From contig JAISLY010000016.1 of NCBI GenBank assembly GCA_031277035.1, positions 1 through 39,327 of the forward strand: a stretch of 39,327 nucleotides of DNA. Reading direction: 5' to 3'. The stretch is from Coriobacteriales bacterium. GTDB taxonomy: Bacteria > Actinomycetota > Coriobacteriia > Coriobacteriales > UBA8131. Position numbers and translations under genes: made by a program. Below are positions 3,993 to 15,335 of the stretch, piece after piece. The first letter of the stretch is position 1. Each line of letters begins with the position of its first letter. The notes beneath the pieces are model-generated. The model was not told the DNA's origin. It did no database searches and saw only the letters and a program-made list of their open reading frames with translations.

Positions 3993-5068
3993 GACCGAGC
4001 ATGCTCTGCAAAGGATTTGGCCTCATCCTCACTGGTGCAATCGACAAAGAGGAACACGCCGTCCTGGGGGATGTTGTCCATCAGCCGGATAGCCTGTTCT
4101 GGTGAGAGGTCGGGTATCACCACTTTGATTCGCTCGAGGGCCTGTTGGTAGAACTCATAGATATGCGGCTGATTGTAGTCGATGACCTTCCTGCCCTGGG
4201 AATCCAGGCGATGCGTCGGCCCCCAGATGATGGAGTGCAGGCGCGGCACCTGTAAAACGCAGGGCAGGAGGCGCAGGTAGGTATCACCGTCCATGCCGTA
4301 AAAGACGCGCGGCAGGGCTGCCGACTCCAGGGTCAGAGCGGGCAGGGATACCTGCTCAAAACATTGGGGAGAAAGCATCACCGAAAGCTCGCTGAATACC
4401 GGGAACCAATCCTGGTCGTTGACCAGGGGCAGTTCGGCCGGAATGTAATCCTGATAGCGACGCAACTGGGCCAGGTTCTCGCGGCGCAGCTCATCCAGCA
4501 GGCCGGCAAGCCAGGCCAGCTGGCGCGAGACCCGCTCGGGCTCAAAGAGTATATCTTCCAGCAGGGCGCCGCGCTCATAGAGAGAAGCGAGACTGTCCAG
4601 GCTCCCACCAAAATCGGCCAAAGCCACCAGGTAGCGTCCGCAGGCCCGCTCCAGAAGCGTCTGAGTGAGCTGGCGATATGCCTGGTAGAATTCCGTATCC
4701 CGCCTGATCTGCAAGGCGAAGACCGACTCCGGGTCCGCAGAGGGCCACTGGTCATACCAGATGGTCTGCTCCCGCAACTCATAGGGCCGGCCCAGCAGCG
4801 CGGGCAACATGCCCGGCCCAAAGTCCAGCATGGCTACCGGCACGGCATCGAGGCCAAACCAGGTTCCCTCTAAGGCATTCTCGATAACCTGGACGCGATA
4901 ATCGACATCCAGCCACTGTTGATGCAGGTCTCGAGGAGGAGGCGCGGCCACCCTGTCATCGCGGGGTGCGTTAATCGAGATGTAGGCCCCTTCTCCTGCG
5001 TATTTGGGCCCCCAGAAGCGGCGATGTCTGCGCAGACGCTCTGCGAACTGCGCATCGTCTAAGAGCAT
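3980..5068 (-). CDS. URO-D-like family protein (uroporphyrinogen decarboxylase / corrinoid methyltransferase fold)
   Basis: A 362-residue protein. The layout (GRYLVALADFGGSLDSLASL, then VNDQDWFPVFSELSVMLSP, then VFYGMDGDTYLRLL, then IIWGPTHR near the C-terminus) resembles URO-D superfamily proteins often annotated as trimethylamine corrinoid protein 2. It is not a classical HemE. At the place where corrinoid methyltransferases carry a zinc-binding HxC, this protein reads GMD; one late Cys is present (VDCTSEDEA). Its reaction is therefore unknown. The ATG at 5068 has GAGGGGA upstream. It sits 34 nt after the ABC ATPase gene and overlaps the EamA gene, so it belongs to the transporter operon. 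A role on the imported compound is an inference from that context. Confidence 0.7.
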   Translation of the reverse strand: MLLDDAQFAERLRRHRRFWGPKYAGEGAYISINAPRDDRVAAPPPRDLHQQWLDVDYRVQVIENALEGTWFGLDAVPVAMLDFGPGMLPALLGRPYELREQTIWYDQWPSADPESVFALQIRRDTEFYQAYRQLTQTLLERACGRYLVALADFGGSLDSLASLYERGALLEDILFEPERVSRQLAWLAGLLDELRRENLAQLRRYQDYIPAELPLVNDQDWFPVFSELSVMLSPQCFEQVSLPALTLESAALPRVFYGMDGDTYLRLLPCVLQVPRLHSIIWGPTHRLDSQGRKVIDYNQPHIYEFYQQALERIKVVIPDLSPEQAIRLMDNIPQDGVFLFVDCTSEDEAKSFAEHARSWVR

Positions 5069-11441: not shown

Positions 11442-11473
11442 CGTGCGCCTGCCTCGCGTGAGGCAGGCGCACG
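11442..11473 (-). terminator. Strong hairpin downstream of the surface protein gene
   Basis: CGTGCGCCTGCCTC (11442-11455) and GAGGCAGGCGCACG (11460-11473) make a perfect 14-bp GC-rich stem with a 4-nt loop, 12 nt after the stop of the surface protein gene. No long T-run follows on the minus strand (only TTTATT further on), so it is a probable but not classical intrinsic terminator. The rest of the 268-nt gap (11218-11485) shows no convincing gene. Confidence 0.65.
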
Positions 11474-11485
11474 TCCCCTCCTATC

Positions 11486-14400
11486 TCACTTCCACTGCCA
11501 AGCGAGGCCGTCGTAGCCCTCCATGCCGGTGCGGTTCGTGAAGGTCTGTCCTGACCCGTACGGGGTACCCAGACTGGTTATCAACGTGCCGTCCGCAAAC
11601 GTGGGCTGAGGGGTGACATCGGTCACGGGGGTGCTCACATAGAAGGTATGCCACCAGCTGTGATTCTGATTGATCAGAACAGCGCCCCCCAAGCTCTTAA
11701 AGCCGTTACCCAGAGTGAAGAACGAGAGGTCGGTGAAGCTTGGGCAGTTGTTCCAGGTATATTCCATGAAGTATGTCGCAGCGTTGGTGGGCATCCAGTT
11801 CGTGGTATCGATCATGACAGGCGAGGTGAGGCTGGTGCAGTTATTCCAGGTCTCGCGCATAAAGCCTCCCATGATGGTGCCCGTGATGTTCCAGTGTCCG
11901 GTTTCCGGTACGACCGCCTCGGTGAGGCTGGTGCAGGAGCCCCAGGTGCCGTACAGGAAGCCATCGCCGGTGTTCCCTGAGACGCTCCAGTTGGAGGTGT
12001 CCGGCACGGCCGCCTCGGTGAGGCTGGTGCAGAATTGCCACGTTCGCTCCAGGAATGATGTGGTGTCGAGGTTTGCGACCGTCCACCCGGAGGTGTCGGG
12101 CACGACGGCCTCGGTGATGGGGCAGGAGGTCCAGGTAAAGCTCAGGAAGTTGCGACCGACGGAGCCTGAGACCGTCCACCCGGAAGTGTCGGGCACGACA
12201 GCCTCGGTGATACCACTGCCGCCCCAACTCCGGTTCATGAAGTATGTTCCGACGGAGCCTGAGATCGTCCACCCGGAGGTGTCGGGTACGACGGGCGTGG
12301 TGAGGCTGGTGCAGCCCTCCCAAGTGCTGTTCAGGAAGGATCCCCCGACAGAGCCGCTCACGCCCCAGTCGGACGTATCGGGCACGACCGCCGTGGTGAG
12401 GTCGGAGCAAAACTCCCAAGTGCCGAACATGAAGGATGCCGGGATATCGATGAGGCGCCAGCTGGAGGTGTCCGGTAGGTCCGCCGAGGTGAGGCTGGTG
12501 CAAGCGCGCCAGGTGTAGACCATGAAGTGTTCGCCAAGACTGGTGACCTCCCAGCTGGAGTTGTCTGGTATGCTCGCCTCGATGAGGCTTGTGCAGCCAT
12601 ACCAGGTGCTGTGCATGAAATTCAAGCCGACGGATTGGACGGCATAGTCAGACGCATCCGGAGTCACGGCCCTCGTGAGGTTCTCGCAACCGGCCCAGAC
12701 GCCGTGCAGGTAGTCATCGCCTGTCTCGGTGGCACTTTGCAGGAAGCCTTTGGCAGGCATATGCACGACCTCTTGAATCTTTGCTCTGTTCTCAACGGAG
12801 CCAACGCTGAAGGCGCGCGCCCACTGGAAGGGGGACGTGGTGTCGTGCGGGGTGATGATGATGGTGTAGGTGCCAGGCGTCGTGTAGGTGTGGGGAATAT
12901 TTGTGGCTCCGTTGCCTGCGGCCGTCGGGTCGCTCTCCTGTTGCGGGGCGCTGCTGTCTCCCCAGTTGATGTCCCAGTCATAGGGGGCTACAGTGCCTGT
13001 GGCACTGTAGCCTGCGGTGGAGACGGCGAAGTCCTCGTCTGCGGTGGTGGTTTGGACCGTAAAGATGAGAGCCTCAATCGATTTCCATTGGGCGTAGAGG
13101 GTCTGGGGGGCGGTTATGGTAACGGAGGTGGTGGCGGTTACAGGTGTGCCTGAGCCATCCGCTTCGGTATTCCACTCCTCGAAGTCATAACCGATGCGCG
13201 AAGGTGTGGGAAGGGTGCCGTAGGTATCATCGTAGGTGACAGTCTGGTCTGCGGGTGCCGGGCCATCCCCTCCGTTGACATCAAAGCTCACGGTATAGGT
13301 GTCAGCTTCCCACTGGGCATAAAGCGAAACTCCGTAGCCAAGCGGGTCAATGTCATCTCCCGGCTCATAGGTTTGGCCACTGCCGTCTCTGACGGTGCTC
13401 CAGTAATCGAGGTGATAGCCCGTCGGGGCAGAAAAGTCGGTGATACCACCAAGGCTGGGGACGGTATAGGCGCTTGCAAAGAGCCGGTCTTCGTCGGTAA
13501 AGGTCGTGGTGTCTAAATCGTCGTGGTTTTGGTAGTAGGTCACATCAACATCGCCTTTGGGCGACCAGATGGCATAAAGTTCCGTGTCAGCCGTTATGGC
13601 AACGGTGTCACCTGCCCCGATGGTCGTGCCTGAGGCATCCGGTTCGCTATTCCAGCCATCGAAGTTATAACCCGCTCGCTCAGGGTCGGGAAGTATGCCG
13701 TAGGCATCATCAAAGGTAACCTGTTTGGCTGATGGATCAAGGCCACTGACTGTATCTGCGGTGTTCTTGTCAAAGGTAAGGGTATAGGTCTTTGGCTCCC
13801 AGATGGCATAGAGCGTCTGGTCGGCTGACGTGGCAACAATGCTTGTGCCTGTTATGGACGCACCTGAGCCATCCGGTGCAGTGTTCCAGCCTTCAAAGTC
13901 ATAGCCGGTACGCGAAGGGGCAGGAAGTGTGCCATAGGGACTGCCATAGGTGACAGGCTTTGACAAAGGGTCAAGGCCGCTTACTGTATCTGTGGTGTTC
14001 TTGTTAAAACTTACCGTATAGTCCTCTTCTTCCCACTGGGCATAAAACTCAGAGTCCTCCGTTATCTTTACGGTATCGCCCGGCTCTATGCCATCGCCTG
14101 TGCCGTCTGCTTCGGTGTTCCATTCCTCAAGGTCATAGCCCGGGCGCGTGCTCTCGGGAAGCGGGCCGTAAGGGTCATCGAAGGTGACCACCATGAAGGG
14201 GGGAACCGGCTCGGTGGCATCCGGGGCGTTTGCCTCAAACTCCACCGTATATTCGTTTGGCTCCCACTGGGCATACAGCGTGCTGTCCTTGCCAGGCACC
14301 AGGTTTTCTCCTGGCAGATACGGCGTGCCTGAGCCATCAGGTCTGCTGTTCCACTCTCTGAAGTGATAGCCCACGCGCTCGATGCCTATCTCCTCAGGGC

Positions 14401-15260
14401 CGGGCACCGGGATGGGCTGGCCGGGTACGATAAAGTCTGTGACCGTACCGTCTCCGCCATTGGAATCAAAGTCAAAGGTGAAGTTTTGGCTTGTCTCAAT
14501 ACGCAGCTTTACGGCATAGCGCCCCGCAGGGGTAGCAGGCGATGCCTTGGCAGAAAGGTAGAGACTTACACCTTTTTGTGCGCCATCGGTGCTCTGTGCA
14601 AAAAGCAGCGCCTCGCCTGAGGGCAAGGCGGCCCAAAGACGGTTGTCTGGGGCTGTATTTTTTGCAGGCGCATAGCCTTCGCCAAAGCCGTTTATGACGG
14701 TGTTTTTCTTTGAGGGCTCAGGGTTTGAGGCAAGCGCAAAGCCCACAGCACCCTCCTTTAAGGGCAGGGGGGCGACAAGCGTGCCTTCGGTTGTGCCAAA
14801 GCCATTTTCGATACACAGCAGATAGACAGAGCTTCCATGCTCAAAGGAGCCGTCTAAGGCGATGGGTATCTCGATGGTGGATTGTACGGATGCGGTGCCT
14901 GTTGTGTGGAGGTCTATCTCATAGGCTCTGTTTGCAGCCTGGGCAGTAGACGAAATGCCCCCCCCCCCCCGCCGCAATTGCAAGCACCAGGAGGAGCAGG
15001 GAGACGAAGTGGCTTCGATGGGTGGTGGTCTTTGCGTTTGTCTTTGCGTTGGTCTTTGAGGGGGCTGTTGCATGTGCCCTTGCATGTGCGCCCCTGCCCG
15101 CAGGCACCCTCTGGCCTCTCATAAACAGGAAGGCGGCACAGGCAGCCAATACGAGGGCAAGGACGATAAAGAGCGGGCCTATCATATCACCAGCGGAGGG
15201 AAGCCCTCCTCCAGATGCTCCCTGCAACACGTTGATAATGACGTCGATGTCTTGAGTCAA
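11486..15260 (-). CDS. Large secreted repeat protein (B-repeats, PKD-like, DUF285-type repeats), frameshifted at a G13 tract
   Basis: The mature part is open in one frame from 15085 to 11486. It holds a leading domain, six InlB-type B-repeats (each ending near YAQW or YAIW, about 13082-14485), a PKD-like segment (DWDINWGDSS, HTYTTPGTYTIII), then eleven about 33-residue units with the core TWxxCTSLTEAVVPDTSGW (about 11726-12697). This is a typical adhesin layout. The leader is in another frame: TTG at 15260 (AGAGGGG upstream), a hydrophobic segment, a basic linker with KTNAKTNAKTTT, and a second hydrophobic segment LLLLVLAIAA running into the G tract. As sequenced, that frame stops at 14919 after 113 residues. 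With 12 Gs it would read on as GGGGISSTAQA-ANRAYEID, with a good signal peptidase site, giving 1257 residues. No C-terminal sorting signal is seen. An assembly error in the homopolymer is the main alternative to phase variation. Confidence 0.75.
11726..12697 (-). repeat. Array of eleven about 33-codon repeats in the surface protein
   Basis: Each unit carries TWxxC(T/S)SLT followed by (A/P)VVPDTSxW(T/S)VSGSVG and a FM/FL residue pair. They resemble the BspA-like / DUF285 surface repeat family, which forms elongated solenoids. Copy-to-copy similarity at DNA level is high enough for recombination to change repeat number. The sixth unit lacks its Cys (SWGGSGIT). Confidence 0.7.
13082..14485 (-). 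repeat. Six InlB-type B-repeats in the surface protein
   Basis: Six consecutive units of about 75 residues, each with a Y/F-T-V-x-F-D/N strand, a GY-x-F/L-x-x-W core, a D-GSG turn and an ending L/FYA(Q/I)W. This is the Flg_new/InlB B-repeat pattern found in bacterial cell-surface proteins. The fifth unit (starting DVTYYQNHDD) is the most divergent. Confidence 0.8.
14958..14970 (-). repeat. Poly-G (G13) tract at the frame switch
   Basis: Thirteen consecutive C on the plus strand (G on the coding strand), the longest homopolymer I noticed in the window. It lies inside the leader of the surface protein, right after the hydrophobic core LLLLVLAIAA. Twelve or fifteen Gs would put leader and ectodomain in one frame; thirteen does not. 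Confidence 0.9.
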
Positions 15261-15326
15261 AATAAGCCCCTCTCTCGCAACCCCATCCAGGTACGCACCC
15301 GCTTTCGCGTTTTTACGTTGCTGGGA

Positions 15327-15335
15327 ATTCTAGCA
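15327..15335 (-). promoter_or_regulatory. Extended -10 candidate for the surface protein gene
   Basis: On the minus strand TGCTAGAAT gives an extended -10 (TGn) with -10 TAGAAT at 15327-15332. The matching -35 is weak. It would start transcription near 15320, about 60 nt before the TTG at 15260. The 15261-15502 gap holds nothing else I can support. Confidence 0.35.

Follow-up and report, generated by a model that had tools for sequence, protein, structure and literature searches.

Reading frames at the G tract

The window analyzed here, a 39,327-base stretch of DNA, comes from a draft genome (G000) that consists of 62 contigs and is 72.7% complete with 4.53% contamination. On its minus strand, adjoining the genes assigned by Pfam scan to a DAHP synthase and a DUF2344 protein, lie two long reading frames that meet at a run of 13 G residues (positions 14958 to 14970; a C run on the plus strand) in the context ...TTGCAATTGCGGC-G13-CATTTCGTCTACTGCCCAGG.... 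The upstream frame, referred to below as the leader, starts from the TTG codon at 15260 and, as assembled, ends at 14919 after 113 residues. The frame located 3' of the tract (11486 to 14957), referred to as the ectodomain, is open from 11486 up to 15085, comprises 1199 residues when counted from the ATG codon at 15085, and contains no internal stops. An exact count in the assembly agrees with the 13 G residues reported in an earlier note on this DNA, and translation from TTG 15260 stops where that note had placed it. Its arithmetic holds as well: tract lengths divisible by 3 (12 or 15) bring the leader and the ectodomain in register, and 12 G residues give a fused protein of 1257 residues.

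When codon usage is scored with eight genes of the window as the training set, the 290 nt located 5' of the tract score +13.7 nats in the leader frame (the other two frames, −55.3 and −29.3), and the first 300 nt located 3' of it score +31.9 in the ectodomain frame (the other two, −50.0 and −57.3), i.e., codon usage swaps frame at the tract. The ATG codon at 15085, which lies 5' of the tract, was considered as a separate translation start for the ectodomain and rejected: its frame has the score of −55.3 in that region, and no hydrophobic segment could be seen there by eye. The next-longest G/C run in the entire window is 7 bases long, and no G13 was present in any of 100 dinucleotide-shuffled versions of the window. 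Accordingly, two hallmarks of intragenic homopolymer phase-variation (contingency) loci are found here, namely, a homopolymer in a coding region that is longer than expected by chance and a tract length that decides the reading of one long frame, as judged from the frames, the codon scores, and the unbroken orthologues described below.

The leader start is preceded, at a distance of 6 nt, by a Shine-Dalgarno-like sequence (GAGAGAGGGG, 15267 to 15276, minus strand) and, farther upstream, by what appears to be a promoter-like site, an extended −10 element (TGCTAGAAT, 15327 to 15335, minus strand) whose end is 66 nt 5' of the start codon. The motif TGNTANAAT within this site is found 44 to 116 nt 5' of the leader start in all four orthologues (the window gene and those in the genomes G019, G008, and G004) and occurs 4 times on both strands of the window, the 15327 to 15335 site included, which corresponds to 0.007 per 140 nt; a generic promoter scan of the window listed nothing at this position. 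A GC-rich inverted repeat read from the sequence just 3' of the stop codon (11442 to 11473, minus strand) could be a terminator; no T run follows it, and the same generic scan does not list it. The only RNA elements in the window at Rfam gathering scores are two tRNAs.

The leader appears to consist of an N-terminal LPxTG-type sorting signal with a hydrophobic helix, a linker, and a second, signal-peptide-like helix. The motif LPSAGD (15186 to 15203, minus strand; leader residues 20 to 25) is a variant with A replacing T and aligns with LASTGD, LPSTGD, and LPATGD of the orthologues. Helix 1 (15123 to 15167, minus strand) has a mean Kyte-Doolittle value of 3.01 over 15 residues and helix 2 (14973 to 15017, minus strand), which runs into the tract, a mean of 1.93 over 15 residues. 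The STAQA-AN sequence that the earlier note had pointed out right after the junction is present in the ectodomain frame (14930 to 14950, minus strand) and, with its A-x-A pattern recognized by eye, could be a signal peptidase site. Thus, the two hydrophobic segments of the previously proposed secretion leader stand, but its description as a leader for secretion only does not, given the LPxTG-type signal at its beginning. The basic residues, assessed by eye, suggest a topology with the tail outside, the linker inside, and the ectodomain outside.

In an alignment of the four leaders, those from G019, G008, and G004 are, respectively, 37, 34, and 33% identical to the window leader, and the invariant residues include M1, D6, V11, L20, G24, and D25. 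A profile built from these four leaders recovers all of them by construction (the one from G004 only at positions 1 to 58) and is therefore not independent evidence; its other matches are partial, typically extending from approximately position 13 to positions 60 to 80, and 34 of the 60 genomes have some match at an E value of ≤0.01. Among 29 loci with profile matches, 11 combine an LPxTG-like motif, a helix, and basic residues located 28 to 78 residues from the stop codon and are, as far as their sequences indicate, ordinary C-terminal sorting signals (one of these, from the same genus as the window genome, reads LPKAGD). The remainder comprises the window, G008, and G004 leaders, a leader-like unit in G010, 12 loci without the motif by the pattern used, and two loci (L200 and L213) not sorted either way. 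The G010 unit (L117, contig 13) contains a signal peptide, a short segment, LPGTGD, a helix, and basic residues near the N terminus of a protein that runs off the contig, and it appears to be another form of an N-terminal sorting-signal leader. In the window genome itself, a beta-helix protein encoded on contig 4 (locus L092) has the C terminus LPATGD...RLRRLRS. The LPSAGD unit is signal-like but is N-terminal and has A for T, and the sole sortase-like match in G000, on another contig, scores 23 bits, below the cutoff of 26.6; matches above the curated cutoff were found in 4 of the 7 genomes searched.

The ectodomain contains Flg_new (Listeria-Bacteroides, or InlB B-type) repeats that span approximately 13088 to 14479 (minus strand; limits set by eye). 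The PF09479 match on the 1199-residue frame (E = 7.2e-61; 202.7 bits versus a cutoff of 27) comprises five stretches, of which the best covers residues 597 to 666, and the Pfam scan of this frame returned only Flg_new, Flg_new_2, and a weak Ribosomal_L27 match. With its five Flg_new stretches well above the Pfam cutoff, the window protein resembles the Listeria-Bacteroides repeat surface proteins; in contrast to them, it has other C-terminal repeats and a sorting-like signal that is N-terminal rather than C-terminal. The C-terminal part (11486 to 13033, minus strand) consists of VPDTS..W / TW..C repeats. Its 515 residues, modeled from the single sequence, are predicted to be beta-rich (mean pLDDT of 53.3, best blocks at 80), weakly suggesting that this region is perhaps a beta-solenoid; a search of the PDB with this model gave no matches at an E value of ≤0.001. 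A C-terminal anchor was also considered and rejected, as no sorting signal was seen at the end of the window protein (...LAWQWK) or of the G019 protein, which also ends in WK. Judging by the repeat type, the ectodomain could have a role in adhesion.

Orthologues and the leader-ectodomain junction

The ectodomain query matched 24 of the 40 relatives at an E value of ≤0.001, with many of the listed matches confined to the repeat part, and three of these relatives, G019, G008, and G004, have what look like orthologues of the window gene. Ectodomain identity to the window protein is 52% in G019, 45% in G008 (where the piece compared is cut by the locus end), and 42% in G004 (where it is 111 residues long). 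No match to the ectodomain was found in G001, a 77% complete genome of the same genus. A scan of named genomes yielded no orthologue, only eight loci with 26 to 36% identity, mainly in the repeat part, in Spirochaetales, Prevotella, Bacilli, Clostridia, Chitinispirillaceae, Paludibacteraceae, Fibrimonadaceae, and Bacteroidaceae metagenome-assembled genomes.

In G008 (contig 20) and G004 (contig 181), which represent two genera other than that of the window genome, the leader runs unbroken into the ectodomain (the G004 frame is cut by the contig end), so that the two parts that the earlier note had joined across the tract lie in a single frame in both relatives. Their junctions carry only short G runs, GGGGAGGAGGGG and GGGACAGGCGGGG, respectively. 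In G019, which represents a third genus, one contig ends inside the second leader helix, and another one starts with GGGGGGGGCATTTTC, i.e., G8 followed by CATTTTC, at the place corresponding to the window junction and continues as the ectodomain. These two contigs appear to join at the junction, although G residues at the end of a contig may in part be artefactual. Runs of at least 8 G at the junction are therefore seen in two of the four genera (G13 in the window and G8 in G019, the latter at a contig end). The G019 leader also carries a C10 run, in the leader sense, within its linker (L115; contig 212, positions 74 to 83); the frame stays open through this run, which is a possible second slippage site in the G019 orthologue.

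The unbroken frame in G008 and G004 and the G019 contigs that break at the corresponding junction indicate that the leader and the ectodomain are parts of one gene rather than two, with the frame switch at a conserved place. This evidence also bears on another reading of the assembled sequence, a pseudogene broken by a frameshift. The frame is indeed broken as assembled, but the break falls exactly in the homopolymer, codon usage typical of coding sequence is kept on both sides of it, no further stop interrupts the long frame, and the orthologues are conserved, which makes a pseudogene extremely improbable. The absence of internal stops together with the 42 to 52% identity to the orthologues argues that the ectodomain frame is not decaying.

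Long G tracts in the genome and its relatives

The G000 assembly contains 18 tracts of at least 10 G. In 157,887 bases around these tracts and in the window, there are 31, 3, 1, and 1 G/C runs of 6, 7, 8, and 9 bases, respectively, and the longest A/T run is 7. Long homopolymer tracts are expected to be unstable, a consideration that bears on the possibility that the 13 G residues are an assembly miscount and that the cells have a constant in-frame length with the gene always on. The tract length in the assembly may be miscounted: the genome is a draft, 7 of its 18 long tracts are no more than 200 nt away from a contig end, and PMC9187656 describes G tracts as hard to sequence. However, even if 13 is the wrong number, a long homopolymer stays in a genome that is otherwise nearly free of G/C runs of 8 or 9, and a constant length would be at odds with the instability expected of so long a run, so an always-on gene is very unlikely.

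Some of the other G000 tracts occupy comparable positions. In L093, a G12 lies between a frame with a signal peptide and one of >1657 residues with beta-helix repeats. In L099 (contig 24, positions 5006 to 5021), a G16 lies between two hydrophobic frames, the second of which carries a LuxR-type GerE domain, possibly representing a phase-variable regulator. In L092 (contig 4, positions 4659 to 4668, minus strand), a G10 is located four bases 5' of the ATG codon of the beta-helix protein mentioned above, which has a signal peptide and ends with LPATGD; this tract might alter ribosome-site spacing. The G29 and G28 runs in L095 and L105 (contigs 12 and 60), both within ~65 nt of contig ends, are probably sequencing or assembly artefacts, and no clear target gene was found for the tracts L091, L094, L096, and L097.

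A different arrangement is seen in L100 and L102, where G15 and G16, respectively, lie between TTGACA and CATTCT/CATTAT, ahead of genes for signal-peptide proteins (the one downstream of L100 has ricin-type lectin domains). TTGACA or TTGACT is found directly 5' of 2 of the 11 internal tracts in G000, 2 of 13 in G001, 2 of 15 in G019, and none of 44 in G003, versus 0.2 to 0.5% of random positions in the same loci. Such spacer tracts of G12 to G16 between TTGACA/TTGACT and a −10-like hexamer (L100 and L102 in G000, L127 and L132 in G001, and L143 and L154 in G019) suggest promoter-spacer phase variation. Homopolymer switches in promoter spacers operate in Neisseria porA/opc and Bordetella fim, whose mechanism is proposed for these six loci; the window tract lies in coding sequence instead.

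In 9 of the 33 family genomes, the number of tracts of at least 10 G ranges from 12 to 179 (G000, 18; G001, 21; G003, 52; G005, 12; G006, 62; G008, 179, with many of the listed ones at the start of a contig and perhaps read artefacts; G019, 28; G021, 60; and G045, 16), and it is 0 to 5 in the other 24. In 27 other genomes of the order, such tracts number 14 in G029, 235 in G034, and 15 in G049. The G034 genome, from another family of the same order, has its 235 tracts in 2.8 Mb, the highest count among the 60 genomes searched.

A pilin motif within ~150 codons 3' of internal tracts is found in none of 11 cases in G000, 1 of 13 in G001, 5 of 15 in G019, and 20 of 44 in G003, versus 0.03 to 1.1% of random positions in the same loci. 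The G003 tracts with such a GFTLVE-type motif mark a large group of type IV pilin-like genes that have the tract in their leader region. Loci L160 to L196 of this genome include 27 copies of starts of the ATG..AAATTACGCC-(G9-12)-CATCACC type, which, with flanks of the ACGCC...CAT[C]ACC type, have 9, 10, 11, and 12 G in 1, 15, 7, and 4 copies, respectively. As some copies have two other bases before the G residues, the distance from ACGC[CT] to CAT was recounted by hand, giving 10, 11, 12, and 13 nt in 1, 1, 17, and 7 copies, and one copy with another flank. Tract lengths thus vary between similar copies, although a single length is shared by most of them. The assignment of ON and OFF states to these copies depended on a guessed start codon and was rejected; by it, only 2 of the 27 copies would be in the ON state, which speaks against a simple frame switch in these genes.

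These observations bear on transcriptional slippage or ribosomal frameshifting as the source of the full-length protein. In that case, a fixed share of it would be made from any DNA length, and the tract would set the dose and not a heritable ON/OFF state. Long G runs are plausible sites of slippage, and productive transcriptional slippage is an already described phenomenon (references in PMC9187656). However, six tracts in three genomes directly follow TTGACA/TTGACT, where only the DNA length would matter, and the DNA tract length differs among the similar G003 copies; slippage or frameshifting in place of a DNA switch is therefore unlikely, and transcriptional slippage could act in addition to such a switch.

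Proposed switch and comparable systems

Slipped-strand ON/OFF phase variation of the window gene, which the earlier note had offered as an inference, is probably the best explanation of these data. The unbroken orthologues, the change of codon frame at the tract, the G019 junction, and the comparable tracts elsewhere in the genomes all favor it over a run arisen by chance or an inactive gene; the existence of the gene without a long tract in G008 and G004 counts against it. The window locus is known from one assembled genome, and each species is represented by one genome. In the proposed mechanism, a single gene would encode a surface protein anchored or exported via its N terminus, with a short tail, the LPxTG-type signal, helix 1, the linker, and helix 2 followed by InlB-type and further repeats outside, and the G tract would cover the glycine codons with which helix 2 ends. 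Its length would change by slipped-strand replication. Lengths divisible by 3 would allow translation into the ectodomain (ON), and other lengths, such as the assembled G13, would give the two-helix leader peptide only (OFF). From the sequence, we infer that the tract slips in living cells, that the protein is displayed on the surface and takes part in adhesion or in varying that surface, and that the assembled length is OFF.

The closest precedent found outside Gram-negative pathogens is a pilus pair of Bifidobacterium breve. According to PMC9187656, an intragenic G tract between a secretion-signal ORF and a pilin ORF varies in length within the B. breve population; in bbr_1889, it splits a 65-residue ORF from a 2674-residue one, and at another locus G11 and G12 account for ~37% and ~60%, respectively. 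The same paper notes that G runs found where reads or contigs end can be artefacts of Illumina sequencing. The B. breve and window systems share a short secretion-signal ORF and a long surface-protein ORF whose fusion is set by the tract length. However, the B. breve gene is the first of a pilus cluster that includes a dedicated sortase, whereas the window gene is adjoined by the two genes named above and has no such sortase gene beside it; the long B. breve ORF carries LPXTG, whereas the long window frame lacks it and LPSAGD is in the leader.

The leader plan alone is reminiscent of Gram-positive IgA1 metalloproteases, which, according to PMC9637739, have an N-terminal LPXTG, a cleavage site downstream of it, and a large mature domain outside. 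Compared with these M26 enzymes as described there, the window protein likewise has an N-terminal LPxTG-type motif (LPSAGD; LPSTGD or LPATGD in orthologues) but the Pfam scan detected neither a G5 nor an M26 domain in it, and no signal peptide precedes the motif in the window.

The wider poly-G repertoire was not found described in searches of an open-licence library, which yielded no title on poly-G switching in such bacteria. The related genomes suggest that G-run switching could be a common way of surface-protein variation in the group. A broader proposal, which the analysis favors by a little, is that this uncultured family has an undescribed genome-wide poly-G contingency system that would operate at various levels, through frame switches in large surface proteins, leader-region tracts in many type IV pilin-like genes (20 of the 44 internal tracts in one genome), −35/−10 spacer tracts, and a split LuxR-type membrane regulator. 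The window gene would be one member of it, with its unusual N-terminal LPxTG-type two-helix leader produced as a membrane peptide of its own even in the OFF state. These loci would also carry the warning that, in metagenome-assembled genomes, intact surface proteins are hidden by gene callers and by contigs that break at G tracts. Slipped-strand switching of surface proteins on a large scale is best known from Gram-negative pathogens, and, if the proposal is true, an uncultured lineage would vary its surface in this way at a similar scale.
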